Assembly: GCA_018263175.1 (NCBI GenBank)
Contig: JADFDB010000013.1
Location: 1-35,192 of the forward strand
Direction: 5' to 3'
DNA: 35,192 nucleotides
Origin: Spirochaetota bacterium
GTDB taxonomy: Bacteria; Spirochaetota; UBA4802; UBA5368
Shown here: positions 15,475-27,041 of the stretch, piece after piece
Numbering within the stretch: position 1 is the first letter of the stretch
How the letters are laid out: each line of letters opens with the position of its first letter
The notes under the pieces: generated by a model
What the model was told of the DNA's origin: nothing
Databases searched by the model: none
The model's input: only the letters and a program-made list of their open reading frames with translations
Program-made: the position numbers and the translations under genes

Positions 15475-16830
15475 ATGTACGAGGACAGCATTTGCGCGCC
15501 GGCGACGCCGCCGGTGAACTCGCCGATAGCGATCATACGAGTGAGCGGCCCTGATACATTCAGGGCCGTCGCGTCTTTGTTCAGCCGTCCGGACGCGCTC
15601 GCCCACCGCCGGGCCGTGTACGGTTCGATCCTCGACGGGCGGACGATAGTGGACGATGTCGTCCTGCTCGTATACCGCGCGCCTGCCAGCTTCACGGGCG
15701 AGGACATGGCCGAGATATTCTGCCACGGGAACCCGCTCATCGTCAACCGGATCATGGCCCTCCTCCTGGCGCGCGGCATGCGGGTGGCCGGTCCGGGCGA
15801 GTTCTCGAGCAGGGCTTTTCATAACGGGAAGATCGACCTTACCGAGGCCGAGGCGATCAACCATATCATCACGGCGAGGGGTGAATGGGAGATCGAGGCG
15901 TCGGTACGGCAGATGCACGGATCGCTTGCACGGGCGATCGACGAGATACGCGAGCGGCTCATCGCGTTGAAGGCGGACATCGAGTGCGGGATCGATTTTG
16001 CCGAGGAGGAGATCGAGTTCGTCAGCAACAGCGCGGCACTCGAGGGACTGAATTACATCCGGGAGCTCGTGGAGGGGGTGCTTCGTCAGTGCCGCATCGG
16101 CGAGCGCGTGAGCCGCGGGATCGACCTTCCCATTGTGGGCCGGCCCAACGTCGGGAAATCGAGCGTGCTCAACCTGCTGCTCAACGCGGAGCGCGCAATC
16201 GTTTCGGCGGTACCCGGAACCACGCGCGACACCATCAGCGAGAGCATCCGGATTGCGGGCATGCACATCAGGCTCATCGATACCGCCGGGATCGATGTTC
16301 CCTCGTGCGAGATCGAGGAGATGGGCATAGGCTTGAGCCTGGCGAAGATCGAGGCCTCCTCACTGCTTGTCGTCGTCGTCGACGCCTCGACCGGCATACT
16401 CGAAGAGGATCGCAGGGTACTGGACGCCGCCGAAGGTAAAAAAAGGATCGTGCTCATCAACAAGGCCGACCTGGTCGACGAGGCGGTGCTTGCCGGCCTG
16501 CGCGGGGAGCTTGGCGGCGAAGGCATCTCGTTTTCGGCAAAAACCGGCCGCGGTTTGAAAGAGCTCGAGGCGGCGGTAAGGGTGTCGCTTTCGGAGGATT
16601 TCGTCGATCAGAAGGATTTTTTCGTGGCGGACGTCCGCATGACCGGCCTGCTCGAAGAGGCGCTCACCTCGATCAGAAGGGCCGAGGGGCTGCTCGCGGA
16701 CGCCGGGCCCGCGGAGATCGTCGCGTTCGAGCTCCAGTCGCTGCTCGACACCCTGGCGGCACTTACCGGCGAGGTGACACCGGACGACGTGCTCAATTCA
16801 ATATTCTCCCGCTTCTGCATAGGAAAATAG
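15475..16830 (+). CDS. mnmE: tRNA modification GTPase MnmE
   Basis: A 451-residue GTPase that works with MnmG to make the 5-carboxymethylaminomethyl group on wobble uridine. The N-terminal tetrahydrofolate-binding domain starts DSICAPATPPVNSPIAIIRVSGP. The helical domain is split by a G domain with P-loop GRPNVGKSS (residues 222-230), DTAGID and NKAD. The protein ends in the invariant CIGK, whose Cys is catalytic. A GTG at 15472 directly precedes the ATG chosen. mnmG is not the next gene; instead a convergent TPR gene overlaps the last 33 bases. Confidence 0.97.
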   Translation: MYEDSICAPATPPVNSPIAIIRVSGPDTFRAVASLFSRPDALAHRRAVYGSILDGRTIVDDVVLLVYRAPASFTGEDMAEIFCHGNPLIVNRIMALLLARGMRVAGPGEFSSRAFHNGKIDLTEAEAINHIITARGEWEIEASVRQMHGSLARAIDEIRERLIALKADIECGIDFAEEEIEFVSNSAALEGLNYIRELVEGVLRQCRIGERVSRGIDLPIVGRPNVGKSSVLNLLLNAERAIVSAVPGTTRDTISESIRIAGMHIRLIDTAGIDVPSCEIEEMGIGLSLAKIEASSLLVVVVDASTGILEEDRRVLDAAEGKKRIVLINKADLVDEAVLAGLRGELGGEGISFSAKTGRGLKELEAAVRVSLSEDFVDQKDFFVADVRMTGLLEEALTSIRRAEGLLADAGPAEIVAFELQSLLDTLAALTGEVTPDDVLNSIFSRFCIGK

Positions 16831-17763
16831 CCCGGAATCGTCGTTGGCGATGATGTCGCCCATCAGGGGCCGGACGATCGCGCGATAGCCCGTGGGATCC
16901 TCGCGGATCGTTTTGAAGTGCGCCGCGTGGCGTTTGAGGAATTCCCGTGCGCCCGCCGCGTCGCCCTGCCGGGCACGCAGGCGAGCGAGCCGGTAGAGCG
17001 CCACGCTGCGCTCATTGAACGAGAGGCGCGTTTCGAGCAGGCCGCGAAGCGAGCGCTCGGCCTCCGCGAGCAGGCCCCTGCGTTCGAGCTCTCCTGCTTT
17101 CATGATGGCCGGGCGCATGGCGAGGGGCGTATCCCGCAGCTCGTTTTGCCGGGTCTCTTCGATCATCCGCTTTATCCGCCCGGAGGGAGCCCTGCTCATC
17201 CCCGCGATCATTTCCAAATATTCGGGTGATCTTCTGACGGTATCGAACAGCGGTTCGCTCAGGACGAGTTCGCGCGAGTTGAATCCGAGTGCGACGGCCT
17301 CCTCTAATAGACGAAAGGCTCCGGCCGTGTCTCCGGAGCGTAGATGCGCGAGCGCCCGCTCGTAGGAGAGCCAGCGGTCGGGTTTCGCCGTGGAGAGGCG
17401 TGAAAGCATCTCCTCGTCGAACGAGGGTCCGCTTTCAAGCAGGGCGGCATGGAGATAGGGAATCGCGAGCGTTTCGCCGGAATCGAGCGCCGTTCGGTAG
17501 GACGAACGAGCCCGTTCGGGGCGCCTTTCCATCTCGTCAATTTTGCCGGCGTTTATAAGGGCGCGGCCGCGAAGGGTACGGTCCTTCAAGAGGGCGGAAA
17601 GCATCCGGCGGGCATCGGACCTGCTTTCGGTGTAGTACGTGTAAAAGACCTCGTGGAACGGGTCAACGCGCGCACGGTCGGCGGACGCCGGGATATGCGC
17701 GGGCAGAAGGAGGCACGCGGCCGTGGCGCAAAAAAGCAGGTGCAGTCTGACTCCCGTATTCAT
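16798..17763 (-). CDS. Exported helical TPR-like protein
   Basis: A 321-residue protein with a Sec signal (residues 1-28, ending PASADR). The rest is alpha-helical and repeat-like: GKIDEMERRPERARSSYRTALD, RSGDTAGAFRLLEEAVALGF and ERRGLLAEAERSLRGLLET fit degenerate TPR/Sel1-type pairs. No catalytic motif seen. It is divergent from the TPR lipoprotein gene at 17938 across a 174-base gap, so they could share control. Its 3' end lies inside the end of mnmE (33-base overlap). It is probably a periplasmic scaffold; function unknown. Confidence 0.75.
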   Translation of the reverse strand: MNTGVRLHLLFCATAACLLLPAHIPASADRARVDPFHEVFYTYYTESRSDARRMLSALLKDRTLRGRALINAGKIDEMERRPERARSSYRTALDSGETLAIPYLHAALLESGPSFDEEMLSRLSTAKPDRWLSYERALAHLRSGDTAGAFRLLEEAVALGFNSRELVLSEPLFDTVRRSPEYLEMIAGMSRAPSGRIKRMIEETRQNELRDTPLAMRPAIMKAGELERRGLLAEAERSLRGLLETRLSFNERSVALYRLARLRARQGDAAGAREFLKRHAAHFKTIREDPTGYRAIVRPLMGDIIANDDSGLFSYAEAGEY

Positions 17764-17937: not shown

Positions 17938-18774
17938 ATGAAGGGAATTGGCGCCGCCGTCGCGGTGTTTTTAATCGCCTGTGCCGCATCGACCGTGAGA
18001 AACGGGGCGGACGATATAATCGAGAACAGGCCGGGGCTTCTGCCCCTTGCGCTGCGATTTCCTTCGGACTGCGGGGACGGGTGGAAGGGCGATATCGCGC
18101 GGCGAGGGGAGCGTCCGGCAACGGCGGACTGCGAGCGGTGGAACCTCGCCCGGTATTATCATACCGTCGAGCGCGCCCAGGGTAGCGCCCGGCGGGCCAT
18201 GAAGCACTATGAGGCGATGCCGGCCGCGGGGGCCGGACACCCGGCCATGGCGAAAAACAACATGGCCTGCATTCGGCTGAACGACGGCAAAATCAGGGAG
18301 GCGGAGAGCGAACTTCTCGGTCTGATCAGCGGCGCCGACGCGATCATTCCCGCGTACTACAACCTGTACATACTGTACCGCCACGCGGGCCGCCTTGAGG
18401 ACGGGGCGAAGACCCTAGTGCTGATGAAGGAACGCTATCCGGAGAACAGTTACGCGGACCTTGAACTCGGCGATATCTTTTCCGATCGTGAGGATTATAC
18501 GACGGCCGAAAATTTTTACCGCGCGGCGCAGAGGGCGGATGCGGACAACCCGGTCCCCGTGCACCGGATGGCGGCGCTCATGGAAAAAATCGGCAGGGAC
18601 GAGGATGCGGAGGTTTATTACCGCCGGTGCCTGAAGTCCTTCCCGCATTACCGGCAGGCCTACGTCGATTATTCATCGATGCTGCTCCGGCAGAACAGGA
18701 AAGACGAAGCCCGGAAGCTGCTGAACAGGGCCGTACGGCTCGTCGATCCGGTGGACGGCGGCGAGGCGCGCTAG
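17938..18774 (+). CDS. TPR lipoprotein
   Basis: A 278-residue protein with a lipobox (FLIAC, Cys15), so probably anchored to a membrane in the periplasm. Residues 60-275 carry about six TPR units, including GRLEDGAKTLVLMKERYPEN and GRDEDAEVYYRRCLKSFPHY. GGGAGAGG precedes the ATG. It is the first gene of an operon with the two giant transglutaminase-like proteins and ends only two bases before the GTG of the next. A TTTGCA/TATGCT pair (17893-17920) is a weak promoter candidate. It probably acts as the membrane-bound docking partner of the downstream proteins (inference from gene order). Confidence 0.78.
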   Translation: MKGIGAAVAVFLIACAASTVRNGADDIIENRPGLLPLALRFPSDCGDGWKGDIARRGERPATADCERWNLARYYHTVERAQGSARRAMKHYEAMPAAGAGHPAMAKNNMACIRLNDGKIREAESELLGLISGADAIIPAYYNLYILYRHAGRLEDGAKTLVLMKERYPENSYADLELGDIFSDREDYTTAENFYRAAQRADADNPVPVHRMAALMEKIGRDEDAEVYYRRCLKSFPHYRQAYVDYSSMLLRQNRKDEARKLLNRAVRLVDPVDGGEAR

Positions 18775-18776
18775 CC

Positions 18777-21700
18777 GTGCGAACGATGCCATACAGGACT
18801 CTCGGGGCGGCTGTCGCGGTTATGATCGTGATCGCCCTCGTGGACGCGTTCGCTTTTGCGGAGGCGGCGCAGGACCCGTTTCTGTCGTCGGCAAAACGCT
18901 TCTGGCGCGGAGAGTATAGCGGTGAGATCGAAGAGCTTGTTCAGACGGCGGTCGGGCTCGATGATCCGGCGGCAATCGAATACGGCGTGTTCAGGATGGC
19001 GGATGCGCTGCGCTATCCCGAACTGATCCCCGCGGGGATTCGGGCATGCGAACGGCTGCTCGCCGAGAACGGGACCGTCGCCCGGAACGAGGAGTTGCGG
19101 GCCCGTGTACGAATACTGCACGGATGGCTGGCGCTGCGCGTCGGCGATACCACCACCGCGGAAAGGATGCTCGACGGTCTCGGATTTATCAAGGACTTCA
19201 GAGTGATCGGGCCTTTCGATTCCGAGGGCGCGGCGGAATTCGGCGCCGCACTCCTTACGAATAACGGTACCGCCGCGGTTTCCGTATATCCGGGGAAACT
19301 CCATCCAGTGCGCTGGCTCGACGCCCGGGCTGATCGCATGGGGATCCTCGATATCGGAGAGAGGGGCCTTGACACGGCGGATGCCGTATATTTTATCACG
19401 GCCGAATTCACGACGCCGGCCGGGGAATCGCGGCTGCTCGGTATCGGCAAGACCGGTCAGGCCGAGCTTTGGGTGGACGGGAGGCCCGTGTTCAACAGCG
19501 CTTCGAGGCATCGCTTTGTGCACGACCAGTACCGTGTGACGGTACGATGCGCCCCCGGGAAGCACCGCGTTTTCATCAGACTGAGCGACTCGCTCCGGGA
19601 CGGCGTCAAGCTTTCACTTCGGCAAACGGCACCTGGTGGCAATGAAACCCCGAAGACTGCCGGCGGAACCCTGTTTCCCGCTTTGCGAAGTCTTCTTGCC
19701 CGCGCCGGCAGCGGCGGACCGGATGATGCGTTCCGTGCCGGCTACCTGATGTATGCGGCGGGCCTTGACAGTGAGGAAACGGGCGAGGCAGCGGCCCTGT
19801 TCCAGGCCGCCCTCACGAGCGAGGTGTACGGGCGCCAGGCGCGCTATTATCTCGCCCTGTGCCGGGACGACGAGGAGAAGCGCGGCATACTGTTGCGGCA
19901 GGCGGCGGACGGTGATCGCACGGCGCTCGCGCCGCTAACGAAGATTGCGGAAGGCAGGATAGCTGCTGGCTTTCTTCACGAGGCGCCGCCCCTGATCGCC
20001 CGGATACGGGAGATCAACCCGTCCTGTCCCGCCGCGGCGGAGCTCGAGTCGTTGTATTTTACGGAAAGAGGCTGGTACGACGAGGCGCTCAAACGGGCAG
20101 ACGCCCTGATCGAATCGGGATTTCCTTCGGCCGGCAGGGCCGTCCGGGCCCGCATTCACCGCCTTCGACGGACGTACCCGAGCGCGGCCGCCGAGTACGA
20201 GATCCTGTGCGGCATGGACCGGTACAACCGGACGCATGCCCTGTCGCTTGCCGATTCGCTCGAGCACGCCGGCGAGGCCGGAAGGGCCGCGGCGGTCCTC
20301 GAGGGGGCCGTACACCTGTTTCCCTGCGATGCCGATGTGCACCGAAGGCTCGCCGCCGCCGTGCGGACGGCCAGAGGAGACGAGGCGGCGCTTCCCTACC
20401 TCACGGCGGCGGTCGCGCTTGCCCCGGACGACAGCGGCATACTGTACGATCTTGGATCGCTGTATTATCGGGCGGGAAACACCCCGACCGGTCTGCGCTA
20501 CATGAGGGAAGCGCTTTCGCGCAATCCCGACAACTTCAGGATGAAAGAGTATCTCGACGCGATCGAGCGCGTTCCCGACCCGCTGGATCGTTTCCGTATT
20601 GCGGAAACGCCCGTTCCCGGCGACGGCGCGGGGCCCTATACGGACGAGGCCGCGGTGGTGCTCCTCGACGAGTGCGTGATGAATATTACGGCCGACGGGT
20701 CGTACGAGAAGACGGTGCACAGGATCTTCCGGATCAACGCCGAAAGCGCGATAAGGGATTTTTCCACGCAGTATATTATTTTCAATCCGTCCACGGACAG
20801 GGTTGAGGACGTGCGCTGCACCGTTGCGCGCGGCGGCGAGGTTGTGGAATCGGCTGAGTCGTATGTGCGCTCGCTCTCGGACCCCGAGAGCCGGACATAC
20901 TACGACGTGCAGGCGAGGGTGCTCTCGGTACCCTCGCTGGGCAGGGGGAGCGTGGTCGATCTGAGCTACCGGATACGAAGCGGGGAGGCGCGGCTGTACC
21001 GCGGCTATGTAGGGCAGCGGATCATGGCGGGGGGGAGATACCGAACGCTGGTTTCGAACATCGTTATCAGCCGTCCCGAGAGCATGCGGCTGCATGTACG
21101 CCTGAGCGGGCTTGCGAACGACCGGCTCTCGGTGACGCGCGAGGGCGACCGGCGCATATACCGGTTCGTGCTCAGGAACCTGCGGCCGTACAGGGATGAG
21201 GTCGCCATGCCGCATCAGAGCGAGATTATCCCATCGCTCATCGTGGGCTCGCACGGCACCTGGGAGGAGGCCGCCCGCTGGTACTCCTCGCTGATGCGCG
21301 GCCGCGCGACGATGAGCGCCGAGATGCAGAAGGATCTCGCCGGCATAATCGGGCCCGGCGATGATGACCTCGAAAAGATGAGAAAGATCTACAACCACGT
21401 CAACGCATCGATACGCTATGTCGGTTTCGAGCTCGGACTCGGAGGGCTCCAGCCGCGGAGCGCGGACCTGACCTACGCGACGCGAATGGGGGACTGCAAG
21501 GACCTCACGCTGGTGCTCGTAGCGATGCTGCGCAAAGCGGGCATCGACGCGCGCATGGCGCTCGTACGGACCAGGGAGCGCGGGGCGCTGGACCGGTCGA
21601 TACCCTTTATCGGTCAGTTCAACCACGCCATCTGTTATGTTAATCTGGAGGGAGGAGTCTTCCTGGACGCGACGGCGAAAATGGCGGGATGCCGCGAGCT

Positions 21701-22445
21701 GCCGACCGAGGACCGGAATATTCAGGCGCTCGTCATCGACGAAAAGGGCCATTCCTTTATCAATACATCGGCCCGATATTACCACGAGAATACCGACGCC
21801 GTACTCACCGAGGTTGCGATCGACGCGAGGGGTGGTGCGGCCTTCACGAGGAAATTGACCAAGGGAGGGGCCTTCGCACGCTCCATCCGCCTGGAGCTTC
21901 TTGATGAACCCGAAAAGCTGCGGGGGATCGCGTCCTACTGGAATTCCAAATATACCGGCGCGTCCATTGCCGGTCTTACGGTCCATCAGGCGGGGACTGA
22001 AAGGCCGGTTGCCTATTCGTACGACGGGCGCATCCCCTCGTTTCTCTCCATGACCGGGGAGTATGCGGCCTTTCCGTCGTTCATCGTGTCGTCGGATTAT
22101 TACCGGGAATACGGGATGATGAAGTCGCGCGTTTTCCCGGTCAGGATATCGGGGGGATGGACGAGCGAGACGATCGTGCGCTTTCGCATACCCGAGGGAT
22201 GGGAGGTCGCGGTCCTGCCGCGTCCGGAGCGGCGCGCTCTTTCCCGTTTTACGGCGAGCTTCGATTACGCGATGAGGGGGAAGGCGGAAATCGAGCTCAG
22301 GGCGAGCGTCGTGTTCAGGGATTCGTCGGTGGGCCCGGCGGAGTACGGTGAGTTCCGGGACTTTCTGATCTTCATTCACCGGAAGGAGAACGAGCGAATC
22401 ATCATACGGAGCGTGAGAGATGGCGGGCCGAAGGCTGACCGGTAA
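18777..22445 (+). CDS. Giant TPR-DUF3857-transglutaminase-like protein, intact triad
   Basis: About 1222 residues, exported (hydrophobic segment near residues 9-28). A beta-sandwich-like region (about 137-285, FRVIGPFDSEG and LWVDGRPVF) comes first. Then come TPR-type helices (300-600), a DUF3857 domain (about 620-800) and a transglutaminase-like papain fold (868-975). The triad is visible: MGDCKD (Cys907), FNHAI (His950) and FLDAT (Asp964). A beta-rich C-terminus closes it. Such folds act as proteases, amidases or cross-linkers; the substrate is unknown. GTG 18777 is preferred because GAGG lies ten bases upstream; ATG 18786 is an alternative. The end overlaps the next gene by 26 bases. Confidence 0.83.
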   Translation: MRTMPYRTLGAAVAVMIVIALVDAFAFAEAAQDPFLSSAKRFWRGEYSGEIEELVQTAVGLDDPAAIEYGVFRMADALRYPELIPAGIRACERLLAENGTVARNEELRARVRILHGWLALRVGDTTTAERMLDGLGFIKDFRVIGPFDSEGAAEFGAALLTNNGTAAVSVYPGKLHPVRWLDARADRMGILDIGERGLDTADAVYFITAEFTTPAGESRLLGIGKTGQAELWVDGRPVFNSASRHRFVHDQYRVTVRCAPGKHRVFIRLSDSLRDGVKLSLRQTAPGGNETPKTAGGTLFPALRSLLARAGSGGPDDAFRAGYLMYAAGLDSEETGEAAALFQAALTSEVYGRQARYYLALCRDDEEKRGILLRQAADGDRTALAPLTKIAEGRIAAGFLHEAPPLIARIREINPSCPAAAELESLYFTERGWYDEALKRADALIESGFPSAGRAVRARIHRLRRTYPSAAAEYEILCGMDRYNRTHALSLADSLEHAGEAGRAAAVLEGAVHLFPCDADVHRRLAAAVRTARGDEAALPYLTAAVALAPDDSGILYDLGSLYYRAGNTPTGLRYMREALSRNPDNFRMKEYLDAIERVPDPLDRFRIAETPVPGDGAGPYTDEAAVVLLDECVMNITADGSYEKTVHRIFRINAESAIRDFSTQYIIFNPSTDRVEDVRCTVARGGEVVESAESYVRSLSDPESRTYYDVQARVLSVPSLGRGSVVDLSYRIRSGEARLYRGYVGQRIMAGGRYRTLVSNIVISRPESMRLHVRLSGLANDRLSVTREGDRRIYRFVLRNLRPYRDEVAMPHQSEIIPSLIVGSHGTWEEAARWYSSLMRGRATMSAEMQKDLAGIIGPGDDDLEKMRKIYNHVNASIRYVGFELGLGGLQPRSADLTYATRMGDCKDLTLVLVAMLRKAGIDARMALVRTRERGALDRSIPFIGQFNHAICYVNLEGGVFLDATAKMAGCRELPTEDRNIQALVIDEKGHSFINTSARYYHENTDAVLTEVAIDARGGAAFTRKLTKGGAFARSIRLELLDEPEKLRGIASYWNSKYTGASIAGLTVHQAGTERPVAYSYDGRIPSFLSMTGEYAAFPSFIVSSDYYREYGMMKSRVFPVRISGGWTSETIVRFRIPEGWEVAVLPRPERRALSRFTASFDYAMRGKAEIELRASVVFRDSSVGPAEYGEFRDFLIFIHRKENERIIIRSVRDGGPKADR

Positions 22446-25400
22446 AGCGCTCGCGACGGCGCTCGCTGCCTTCCTGCTGTGGTCCGCTCCGGCGGCCGCG
22501 GCGGATGAGAGCATCCGCGCGTACGAAAAGCGCGTATTCGAGAGCTTTGCCGGGGGCGATTATTACGCGCTCTATGGTTCCATAGAAGCCATGTTGCTGC
22601 GATTTCCCGCGGCGCCCGAGTCGGCGCTCTATTTTTCGGATCTCGTTACGCTGGCCGATCTGCACGGCTTCGCCAGGGTCGACGGCGCCCTTTCGAGCAT
22701 CGTCGCCGCACTCGAGGCGGGGAAGACGCCGCACGCGGGACTGTACGGTCTTAGCATCACGCTCGAGCGCGAAAGGCTGGCGCGCCGGCTCGCGCCGGGC
22801 AAAGCGGCCGAATACCTGGCGCGTCTGCACCCGGTACGGGACTGGAGCGTGTCCGGGCCCTATTACCGGTTCGGCGCCGCCGATCTGGCCCATGCGTTCC
22901 TGCCCGAAATAGCGCCGCCGGAGGCGGGGAACGGGGTGCGATGGAAAAAAATAACCGCGGATGAAAAAACCGGGGAGGTCGATTTCAGGCGCCTTCTGTA
23001 CCCGGAGCGGGGCGTGGCCTATGCGGTCACCACCCTTTCTCCCGGAGCGCCCGTCAGGCTGAGAATGTATTCACCGTGCGAATACCGGCTGTTTATCAAT
23101 GGACGCCCGGCGGTCGAGAACGTCGACGCGGGTATCCGCCGATCGGTCCGCGTGATCGAGGCGAAGGCTGAAGAACCTGTTACCATACTGGTTAAACTCT
23201 ATGCCGATGATGACTGGCGCTTCCGATTGATCGTGACCGACATGAACGACAAGCCAATGGCGCTGAATGGGGCGCCGGGAAGACCGGCCGCCGGTCCGTG
23301 CGCATTCATGGAGGTGCCGGACTATCCTTATGAGGTGCTGGTGGAGCGCCTGCACGGCGGGGCGGCCGGCGCATCGTTTCACCTTGGAAGCTATTACCGC
23401 GAGCGGGACAGCCGCGAGGCGGTCAAATACTTCAGGAAAGGGAGGGCCTCGGAAGGAAACTATCCCTATCGCTATTTTCTCGCGGAATCACTTCTAAATA
23501 GCTCGGGAAGCGTTAAGGGCAGCGCGGCCTACGTCGAGGCGGCGCGCATCTATACCGAGCTCGGCGAAACGGACGAGGCCTTCATTCCCGCGCAGTACCG
23601 CCGGCTGCAGATCCTTGCGGGCAGAAAGGCGATGGCGGAGGCCCGGGCCGTCGGGAGCTCGCTCGTGCGTCGCGCTCCGCTGTTTCTGCCGTTGAGGGAG
23701 GAGTACTCGGCGCTACTTGCGCTCCTCGGCCATGAAAAGGAATTCGAGGAGGATGCAGCGGCCTTCGCGAAGGCGTTCCCGTCTTCGCCGGCCCCCCGAA
23801 AGAGCCTGGCGGCGTATCATCGATGGAATGACCCGGCCCTCGCGGCCGGGCTGTACCGCGAGGTCCTCGCTTCCGGTTTCGATAAAACGGCGTTCGAGAC
23901 GCTTATCGACATCCTCCGGGGGATGGAACGGCACGATGATATCGTAGCCCTTGTAGATGAATACGACCGGTTCGATGCATACGGCAGGGAGCGGATCGAC
24001 GCGCTCATCGATAAGGGTGATTACGCGCGCGCGTCGCGGCTGCTTCTGGAGCGGGTCGCCCGCAGGGACGATCCGGAGGATTACCTGCGCCTCGGGAGAA
24101 TCAGTTATCTTGAAGGCGAAGTCCCCGCGCTCAACTGGGGGAGGATGCTCGCGATCGCCCCGTCCTACTACATGATGGGTGACCTGCTGGATTTCCTCGC
24201 CGGAGAAGGGCTCGAGCCGCCCATTGTCCGCGAACGGGAGGAGCGGGGAGAGGACTACCTTGCCTCGTGGATGCTTCGTAAAAGAAAGGCCACGGGCGCC
24301 CCGTCCGAGGTGCTGTACCGGGGCAGGGTCTACCGGCTCAATGCGGACGGCAGCAGCCGCGCTTTCTGCGAGGATGTCGTCTATGTTCACGACGCCCGGG
24401 GCATCGAACGATATGGAGAGTTCAGGCTCGAACATGGGAACAGGGTGTACCCTCTGCGGGCCAGGGTATACCGGGAGGATGGAAGCTACAGCGACGCCGG
24501 CCGGATTATTCGCGTGGACGGGGCGTCGTATCTATCGCTTCCATCGCTCGGCGAGCGGTCCGTCATCCATGTGGCCTATTACGCGGACAATCCCTTCGAG
24601 CTCCGGGGTTCATCGAGGATTTTTGCGACACCCCTTACGGCGATACACGATTTCGACGAAGCGCTCGGGGTTTTTTCGTGCCGGGTTATTGCACCGGAGG
24701 ACCTGGAGGTGAAGATTGCCTTCACCGGCGGCACGATAACGCACCGCAGGCGAAACGGCATGATCGAGTACTCGATGAGAAGCGAAAACCGTGCGCCCGT
24801 CCGGATCGAACGCGCGATGGGGAACCGGCTGCGCTACCTTCCGCTGTACTCGATCTCCACAATGAGGGACTGGAAAGAATTCGCGATATGGTACAACGGT
24901 CTGGCGCGTGAGGCGTCCGGCCTTCAGGAGGACGATATCCGCGCGAGCTTTGCCGGCGGGAGCGTGGACGAGGCGGTCCGGCGGGTCTATGCCTTTGTTT
25001 CGCGGGAGATCGATCTCTCGGCCAACGTGCTGTATTATCCCGAAATGGCCGCGACGACGCTGATGAAGCGCAGGGGGACCCCGGAGGACAAGGCGGTGCT
25101 TGCCAGGGCGATGCTGGAATGCCTGGGGATACGTTCGTACCTTGCCTTTACGGCCGGGCGGGATTTCCCCGACCTGCGCGGTTTCATCTCGCCGGGAATT
25201 TTCTCGCATGAACTGCTGTATGTGCCCATAGATCGGCGCGAGGGGGTCTGGTTGGATTTCTCGGAGGTCCACAACGGCTACGGTGTGGTGGACCCAGGGA
25301 TTGAGGGGGCCGAGGCGCTAATCATTATCCGCGACAGGGTCGAAACGCGCACCATCACCGCGTCGAGGATGAGCGGGAGCAGGATCGGAATGAATGTTCG

Positions 25401-26004
25401 GATCGATGACAGGGGAAACGCTTTTTTCGACGGAAGCCTGCGCTTTCACGGCGCCAGGGGGGATGTACGTTCGCTGTTCCAGGACGCCGGGTCCAGGGAG
25501 GAGATGGTCAACCGGCTCCTCGCGCACATGTTTCCCGCTTTCAGCCTCGACGATTTCAGGCTCGCCGGACTCGAGGGAACGGATACGCCGCTCGAACTCG
25601 CGATAAAGGGGCGCGCATTCGCGATCTGCACGGTCGTCCCGGACCGGATCGTCATAACACCGGTCCTCAACGCAAGCGAGGTGCTGCGCCACGTCGATGA
25701 CCGTAATAGATCGCATCCCTTCCACATCGTCCGCCCGGTCAACGAATCCGAGCGCTATCGCTTTACACTTCCGGCAGCGTATCGCGGGGCCTCGCTGGAA
25801 AGGGAGGACGTGATACAATGCCGCTTCGGCTATGCCATTATTCGGGTATCGAAGCGCCCGGGGTCGCTCGAGCTCGAGGTCGACAAGGAGGTGCACGTTA
25901 ATGCGGTCAGTATAGATCCATCGGATTACGGCGAATTCGTCGATTTCTCAACCGGCGTTCAGCAGGCCGAACAGCGGCAGGTAATAATAGAAAAACGCGG
26001 ATAG
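22420..26004 (+). CDS. Paralogous TPR-DUF3857 protein with a catalytically dead transglutaminase-like domain
   Basis: A 1194-residue exported protein (signal peptide to about residue 27, APAAAADES). It repeats the order of the upstream gene: sandwich-like region (about 140-276, VRDWSVSGPYYRFG and LFINGRPAV), TPR helices (300-600), DUF3857-like region (636-800), transglutaminase-like region (849-955) and beta-rich end. At the position of the active Cys the motif reads GTPED, so Cys is replaced by Pro888. The His (SHELL, His930) and Asp (WLDFS, Asp946) are kept. It is thus probably a pseudoenzyme partner that arose by tandem duplication. The ATG lies inside the previous gene, giving coupled translation. 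Confidence 0.82.
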   Translation: MAGRRLTGKALATALAAFLLWSAPAAAADESIRAYEKRVFESFAGGDYYALYGSIEAMLLRFPAAPESALYFSDLVTLADLHGFARVDGALSSIVAALEAGKTPHAGLYGLSITLERERLARRLAPGKAAEYLARLHPVRDWSVSGPYYRFGAADLAHAFLPEIAPPEAGNGVRWKKITADEKTGEVDFRRLLYPERGVAYAVTTLSPGAPVRLRMYSPCEYRLFINGRPAVENVDAGIRRSVRVIEAKAEEPVTILVKLYADDDWRFRLIVTDMNDKPMALNGAPGRPAAGPCAFMEVPDYPYEVLVERLHGGAAGASFHLGSYYRERDSREAVKYFRKGRASEGNYPYRYFLAESLLNSSGSVKGSAAYVEAARIYTELGETDEAFIPAQYRRLQILAGRKAMAEARAVGSSLVRRAPLFLPLREEYSALLALLGHEKEFEEDAAAFAKAFPSSPAPRKSLAAYHRWNDPALAAGLYREVLASGFDKTAFETLIDILRGMERHDDIVALVDEYDRFDAYGRERIDALIDKGDYARASRLLLERVARRDDPEDYLRLGRISYLEGEVPALNWGRMLAIAPSYYMMGDLLDFLAGEGLEPPIVREREERGEDYLASWMLRKRKATGAPSEVLYRGRVYRLNADGSSRAFCEDVVYVHDARGIERYGEFRLEHGNRVYPLRARVYREDGSYSDAGRIIRVDGASYLSLPSLGERSVIHVAYYADNPFELRGSSRIFATPLTAIHDFDEALGVFSCRVIAPEDLEVKIAFTGGTITHRRRNGMIEYSMRSENRAPVRIERAMGNRLRYLPLYSISTMRDWKEFAIWYNGLAREASGLQEDDIRASFAGGSVDEAVRRVYAFVSREIDLSANVLYYPEMAATTLMKRRGTPEDKAVLARAMLECLGIRSYLAFTAGRDFPDLRGFISPGIFSHELLYVPIDRREGVWLDFSEVHNGYGVVDPGIEGAEALIIIRDRVETRTITASRMSGSRIGMNVRIDDRGNAFFDGSLRFHGARGDVRSLFQDAGSREEMVNRLLAHMFPAFSLDDFRLAGLEGTDTPLELAIKGRAFAICTVVPDRIVITPVLNASEVLRHVDDRNRSHPFHIVRPVNESERYRFTLPAAYRGASLEREDVIQCRFGYAIIRVSKRPGSLELEVDKEVHVNAVSIDPSDYGEFVDFSTGVQQAEQRQVIIEKRG

Positions 26005-26400: not shown

Positions 26401-26479
26401 TCGGTTTAATACCCGATTATGCAACAACTCCATTATATCTTCAGGTAGACTGCTGCAAGGTTACAGGGCTAAAAACCGG

Positions 26480-26509
26480 TTGTCAATACTATATGCGTCG
26501 TAATATAAA
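26480..26509 (+). promoter_or_regulatory. Distal promoter candidate of nikR
   Basis: TTGTCA (26480-26485), an 18-base spacer and TATAAA (26504-26509). A 6-bp inverted repeat, ATATAA with TTATAT, spans the -10. This would give a leader of about 110 bases. Confidence 0.4.
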
Positions 26510-26564
26510 AAATTATATCGGGCGATTTATGCCCGTTCGGTGATTTTCCGATCTGCCGGCGTGC

Positions 26565-26600
26565 TTGACACCGGCGTTTTCCATGATACACTGCCGCCGG
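26565..26600 (+). promoter_or_regulatory. Proximal nikR promoter with possible operator
   Basis: TTGACA (26565-26570) and TACACT (26587-26592) are separated by 16 bases. CCGGCG (26571-26576) and CGCCGG (26595-26600) form an inverted repeat around the -10, and CCGGCGT also occurs at 26556. These could be operator half-sites, perhaps for NikR itself; they do not match the E. coli NikR consensus halves. Confidence 0.4.
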
Positions 26601-26624
26601 AAAATTCAATAAGGATGGGCCTTC

Positions 26625-27041
26625 ATGAACACCAGGATAACTCGCTTCGGGGTATCGATTGACGACAAGCTCCTCGTCCAGTTCGACGATCTGATCTCGG
26701 AGAAGGGCTATGTAAACCGGTCGGAGGCCATCCGCGATCTGATACGGGACGTGCTCGTCCGCGAAGAGGCCTCGTCGCCCGAGGCCGAGGTTATAGGAAC
26801 GCTCACCCTCGTCTACAGCCACGAGGTGAGGGAGATCGCCGACCGCCTCAATGACATACAGCACGATAATTACCGAAATATCATCTCTACGGTGCACGTC
26901 CATCTCGATGCGCACAACTGCCTGGAGGTCCTCATTTTAAAAGGAGTTTCTCACGTGGTTAAAAAGATCGCCGACCATCTGCTCTCCATAAAGAACGTTC
27001 GCCACGGGAAGCTCACCATTACGACTACGGGAAACGAATAA
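26625..27041 (+). CDS. nikR: Nickel-responsive transcriptional regulator NikR
   Basis: A 138-residue ribbon-helix-helix/ACT repressor. Residues 1-45 are the DNA-binding part (TRFGVSIDDKLLVQFDDLI, then YVNRSEAIRDLIRD). The C-terminal metal domain retains all four high-affinity nickel ligands with E. coli spacing: His80, His91, His93 and Cys99. GEVIGT-type tetramer contacts are seen as EVIGTLTLVYSH. It usually represses nickel uptake or shapes urease/hydrogenase expression, but no nickel transporter or enzyme is encoded in this window. The ATG at 26625 is preceded by AAGGA. Length is normal. Confidence 0.94.
   Translation: MNTRITRFGVSIDDKLLVQFDDLISEKGYVNRSEAIRDLIRDVLVREEASSPEAEVIGTLTLVYSHEVREIADRLNDIQHDNYRNIISTVHVHLDAHNCLEVLILKGVSHVVKKIADHLLSIKNVRHGKLTITTTGNE

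Follow-up and report, generated by a model that had tools for sequence, protein, structure and literature searches.

The window, the whole stretch of 35,192 nucleotides analysed here, comes from an uncultured member of the Spirochaetota (genome G000, 2.65 Mb, 73% complete) and carries two adjacent genes for paralogous proteins of about 1200 residues, A and B. Only A has the Cys-His-Asp triad of transglutaminase-like (TG) enzymes. The question raised by this locus is whether B is a copy on its way to loss or a working partner of A, and what the two proteins would then do. The genes for A and B follow a TPR lipoprotein gene in a tightly packed operon, and the gene order is yidC, jag, mnmE, a divergently transcribed TPR gene, the lipoprotein gene, A and B (Table 1). 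The three ORFs were found where the preliminary description of this DNA had placed them, and the short gap and the overlap claimed there hold: the genes of A and B overlap by exactly 26 bases, and the gap between the lipoprotein and A is 2 bases with the GTG start at 18777 or 11 bases if the in-frame ATG at 18786 is used. Chance does not explain the arrangement, which relatives conserve as a whole; the Spirochaetes MAGs ADurb.BinA120, Prado230 and UBA5368 are among the named relatives picked up with the B alignment. Two further reading frames were noted. An antisense ORF of 859 codons opposite A (19935-22514, minus strand) is a shadow ORF of high-GC coding sequence and was not counted as a gene. 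An ORF of 148 codons (26469-26915, minus strand) has no Pfam match and has homologues at the equivalent position in genomes G004 and G002.

Table 1. Features of the A/B locus, in positions of the window.
Feature	Positions	Strand	Basis or remark
Secreted TPR protein, 321 aa, 'TPR end-of-group' domain	16798..17763	-	Divergently transcribed
TPR lipoprotein, 278 aa, lipobox LIAC, possible anchor	17938..18774	+
Protein A: TPR/DUF3857/TG protein with intact catalytic site, putatively exported, 1222 aa, GTG start	18777..22445	+
A beta-sandwich, PA14/galactose-binding-like, residues 131-300	19167..19676	+	AF2 strands, family profile
A TPR superhelix, residues 310-600	19704..20576	+
A DUF3857, residues 625-810	20649..21206	+	Pfam E 1e-20
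A transglutaminase-like core with Cys907, His950, Asp964	21219..21671	+	Pfam E 6e-10
A C-terminal DUF3858-like beta domain	21744..22442	+
Protein B: putatively exported pseudo-transglutaminase paralogue, 1194 aa	22420..26004	+
B PA14/galactose-binding-like domain, residues 137-290	22828..23289	+
B TPR-like superhelix, residues 310-600	23347..24219	+
B DUF3857, residues 625-800	24292..24819	+	Sub-threshold Pfam; orthologues to E 8e-11; 3KD4 fold match
B dead transglutaminase fold with Pro888, His930, Asp946	24820..25269	+
B DUF3858-like C-terminal domain	25342..26001	+	Pfam DUF3858 in 20/20 B members, best E 4e-8

A and B both start with a signal sequence and have a common order of regions (helical, PA14-like, TPR, DUF3857, TG, DUF3858-like). 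The two proteins are 24% identical over 589 residues of the C-terminal half (E 3e-18). That they share one order of regions had been noted in the preliminary description. Pfam assigns A to the transglutaminase-like superfamily (PF01841) and gives a match to DUF3857 (PF12969) of 74.8 bits, above the cut-off of 24.6. The scores of B lie below the respective cut-offs, with 14 bits for DUF3857, 19.6 bits for the transglutaminase core (cut-off 23) and 14.8 bits for DUF3858 (PF12970, cut-off 27). The fold of its TG region was assigned by its AF2 model and a Foldseek match to the PDB entry 3KD4, DUF3857 is matched at E < 0.1 by 14 of 20 B orthologues, and all 20 B members match DUF3858 weakly. The PA14 label comes from weak matches, in relatives of B, and serves as a lead only. 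A search of A against the LapG/BTLCP profile Peptidase_C93 (PF06035) remained sub-threshold (13.5 bits, cut-off 27). The PADLOC profiles of anti-phage defence gave no match for A or B and one weak TPR-level match for the lipoprotein, and a reading as a defence system was dropped for want of support.

The active site was checked at codon level. In A, Cys907 is encoded by TGC (21495-21497), His950 by CAC (21624-21626) and Asp964 by GAC (21666-21668); in B the Cys position is occupied by Pro888 (CCG, 25081-25083), with His930 (CAT, 25207-25209) and Asp946 (GAT, 25255-25257). Structure prediction gave a TG fold for both proteins, and 3KD4 was the best PDB match of each model (E 2.8e-25 and TMt 0.83 for A; E 1.2e-19 and TMt 0.77 for B, whose AF2 model has a pLDDT of 87.8 and a pTM of 0.83). 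In the models equivalent helices begin at Cys907 and at Pro888, and equivalent strands have the His and Asp residues at their ends. As the models place these residues alike, the equivalence of the sites does not come from sequence alignment alone. 3KD4, the product of BDI_1141 of Parabacteroides distasonis, has the three-domain DUF3857-Transglut_core-DUF3858 fold found in the C-terminal half of A and B but, unlike them, no PA14-like or TPR N-terminal half.

A survey of the Cys site covered 37 TG domains of the B family, taken from the 46 genomes of the order and from outliers. Not one has Cys; Pro, Val, Ala, Ser, Thr, Gln or Leu are found there instead and the 37 domains reveal no alternative conserved nucleophile, hence B was filed as a pseudoenzyme. 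The triad is conserved in 24 of 25 A orthologues, with the sole exception of G033 (Ser, Arg and Asp; L061:6358-10017). Within the genus of G033, the site remains intact in G032 and the TG domain has been lost from G029 and G034, a repeated recent loss of catalysis. The preliminary description also stated that His and Asp remain in B. This applies to the genus of the window, to which retention of the His is mainly limited, but not to the order, in which the His position is variable (H 8, D 7, N 6 and S 3 in 26 sequences). Asp946 is invariant in the 26 full-length and fused sequences and is lost in most short B forms (see below). The dead site has a signature of its own, formed by Gly886-Thr-x-Glu889-Asp890-Lys/Arg891 (G-T-x-E-D-K) and Trp944-Leu-Asp946-Phe-Ser (W-L-D-F-S), with Glu889 present in 24 and Lys/Arg891 in 25 of 26 sequences. 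Since no B orthologue has the Cys, B folds like 3KD4 and its TG domain is under selection (see below), the enzyme/pseudoenzyme reading of A and B, first put forward in the preliminary description, is strongly supported. It has withstood both of the refuting observations named there, a Cys in most orthologues of B and folds that do not align as transglutaminase-like.

Loss of the Cys, often accompanied by loss of the His, is also what a decaying, pseudogene-like paralogue would display. This reading of B retains practically no probability and is refuted by the selection and conservation data: full-length open frames are present in 22 genomes, the dead-site signature is conserved, and omega of the B TG domain is 0.15-0.20 between congeners, like that of B's other domains, with some dS values near saturation. 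Across the order, no other domain of B is as conserved as the TG domain (0.40 identity), which is under purifying selection.

In the phylogeny, A and B are each monophyletic and form sister clades (support of 79 for A in the thinned tree; the B clade is starred). Both clades contain family f9, which lies outside the order, so the split between A and B predates the diversification of the order. The dead site is older than this diversification, yet under selection, an observation that extends the preliminary description. Adjacent A and B genes are found in families f1, f3, f6 (G030) and f9, with overlaps of 4-26 bases or gaps of 1-3 bases, and probably in f18; adjacency is kept in f1, f3, f6 and f9 despite a divergence of over 60%. 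It is not obligatory, because the two loci are far apart on the chromosome in f4, f5 (G015) and f7. In G008, A and B are 955 bases apart with one gene between them; this gene codes for a zinc-dependent alcohol dehydrogenase (L040:10049-11020) and overlaps both neighbours. G011 and G020 encode a single protein of about 1355 residues in which the N-terminal half of A, without the TG domain, is fused to B. At G034, an open frame of 24,641 codons consists of masked sequence (N) and does not represent a giant fusion. The fusion in G011 and G020 is the best evidence that A and B would associate physically, and together with the conserved overlapping adjacency it makes a complex of the two proteins likely. 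The separated loci of f4, f5 and f7, and the presence of B without A in 11 genomes, could alternatively mean that A and B act apart, the tandem being a leftover of duplication and B having been repurposed, for instance as a glycan- or protein-binding scaffold. We regard this as quite unlikely in view of the A-B fusions, of the adjacency maintained in four divergent families and of the live/dead tandems that recur in other families and in another phylum.

The distribution of the two proteins tells which of them the order holds on to. B is present in 38 of the 46 genomes, 11 of which have only a short B-like form of 810-896 residues and no A. B thus cannot need A everywhere. In those f6 genomes that belong to genus g8, the short form occupies the ancestral location, directly after mnmE. 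Twenty-two genomes of the order carry an A with an intact site, and 21 of them also have B; the one without B, G043, is 81% complete. In six further genomes the TG domain of A is absent (G011, G020, G029, G030 and G034) or degenerate (G033), always in the company of B; the G030 data come from two contigs and B of G034 is partly masked. In 17 of the 38 genomes with B, no A with an intact catalytic site accompanies it, whereas an intact A is hardly ever found where B is missing, so the scaffold and the dead domain would appear to form the core of the system, with catalysis by A as an accessory. For the same reason the processing or cross-linking of a substrate, the role suggested in the preliminary description, cannot be the whole function. 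The near-constant company of B where A is intact, the overlap of their genes and the strong constraint on the A TG domain, which is the most constrained domain (omega 0.06-0.10 between congeners, some dS near saturation), would suit a B that serves A as obligate activator or substrate adaptor, with catalysis by A as the point of the system. That B is kept where the A TG domain is lost or degenerate, and that short B-like forms exist in genomes devoid of A, make this alternative rather unlikely, albeit less so than the separate action of the two proteins.

The third gene of the operon is less constant than had been proposed. The preliminary description included a membrane-anchored TPR scaffold in a three-gene order. 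In the window the signal sequence indeed has a lipobox, LIAC, close to its end, in line with the pattern [LVI]-x-[AGS]-C, and most of the orthologues listed, as well as that of G030, have Cys then Ala ending the signal sequence (both read by eye). However, the lipoprotein has full-length orthologues in f1 and G030 only, apart from which G035 gave a single weak match at TPR level, and many more genomes have A and B but not the lipoprotein. Being largely limited to one family, the lipoprotein would be a peripheral, lineage-specific anchor at most. The most constant neighbour of A is the divergent secreted TPR gene, which in 13 genomes (f1, f2, f4, f5 and f6) adjoins A or its fusion with B and is a candidate further component. 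In the neighbour survey no other functional neighbour was conserved across families. A single function deduced from genomic context was abandoned as yidC-jag-mnmE, the NlpD-like M23 genes close to the A/B pair of f1, the amidase and HtrA genes next to B in five f7 genomes, and mlaD/radA are each lineage-specific. Among the context genes there is none that specifically suggests peptidoglycan, one of the substrates that the preliminary description had entertained.

Judging from the signal peptides and the lipobox, read by eye, A and B would be located outside the cytoplasm. The hypothesis that we favour, and hold to be rather probable, is that A and B are an ancient exported enzyme/pseudoenzyme pair, probably assembled as a periplasmic heteromer through their N-terminal PA14-like and TPR scaffolds and, in the family of the window, tethered to a membrane by the TPR lipoprotein. 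The Cys-His-Asp site of A would perform thiol acyl transfer, most likely as a peptidase or amidase. B lost its nucleophile before the order diversified, and its cleft, marked by its own signature, would now have a binding or regulatory role. The scaffold and the dead domain would form the core of the machine, and catalysis by A would be an accessory lost in several lineages.

The reaction of A deserves separate consideration. LapG is a periplasmic peptidase of the TG fold. Like A, LapG/BTLCP (Peptidase_C93) proteins and TgpA of Pseudomonas aeruginosa are TG-fold Cys-His-Asp enzymes outside the cytoplasm; unlike A, they have neither DUF3857 nor a TPR scaffold, and we know of no dead partner for either. 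The periplasmic part of TgpA has transglutaminase activity in vitro (PMC3507681), and the canonical Cys-His-Asp in the TG core of a putatively exported protein would be compatible with A being a periplasmic cross-linking transglutaminase of this kind. This is improbable, TgpA being an integral membrane protein without the TPR/DUF3857 architecture and most members of the TG fold being, as is well established, peptidases or amidases (overview in PMC10318531). A hydrolytic A is weakly favoured over a cross-linking one. A precedent for B is given by eukaryotic inactive TG-fold proteins (band 4.2/EPB42, XPC/Rad4 and FBXO21), which lost the nucleophile and were kept as scaffolds or binding modules (PMC10318531). 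They share the dead TG fold with B but differ from it in architecture and lineage and have no bacterial tandem with a live paralogue.

Live/dead pairs are also found beyond the order of the window. Within the Spirochaetota, families f8 and f21 encode DUF3857-TG proteins of about 700 residues in pairs, one dead and one live, which are in tandem in G059, G068, G087 and G075 and apart in G081 and G046. G059 and G075 also encode DUF3857-TG proteins of about 1050 residues (L154:4699-7860 and L155:4073-7264) with Ser and Ile in place of a Cys that their relatives keep. The evidence from Bacteroidota consists of two tandem pairs and one single live copy: Persicobacter has a live/dead tandem, Aureibacter a single live copy, and in Parabacteroides distasonis (NZ_OY725779.1) a live gene of 652 codons is followed after 13 bases by a gene that matches 3KD4 end to end (L139:6847-8430). 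The Cys site of this second gene reads A-Y-G-T-P-L-E, compared with R-R-G-T-P-E-D in B of the window, and 3KD4 has consequently no nucleophile. The label 'putative protease' under which 3KD4 was deposited is probably wrong, and the sole solved structure of the DUF3857-TG family is that of a dead member. Scans of viral contigs with the Parabacteroides pair gave no match. The best tree sets B apart from the 700-residue dead clade, so that dead members may have arisen more than once, but a single dead clade is not rejected (p-AU 0.166).

In the open-access papers searched, the live/dead pair is not described, a single paper names DUF3857, in passing, for a gene next to lolA of Xanthomonas, and a study of vasohibins gives 3KD4 as a fold match. 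To our knowledge, DUF3857-TG proteins are present in many bacteria with no known function. Tandem live/dead DUF3857-TG pairs may, more tentatively, represent an ancient class of envelope machines that crosses phyla, with the dead subunit and the scaffold as conserved working core, the live subunit as an add-on, and 3KD4 as an unrecognised dead subunit. The patterns of loss indicate that the dead half is more indispensable than the live half. The occurrence of DUF3857-TG proteins as live/dead pairs turns an anonymous domain into a testable pseudoenzyme system, including in the culturable Parabacteroides distasonis.
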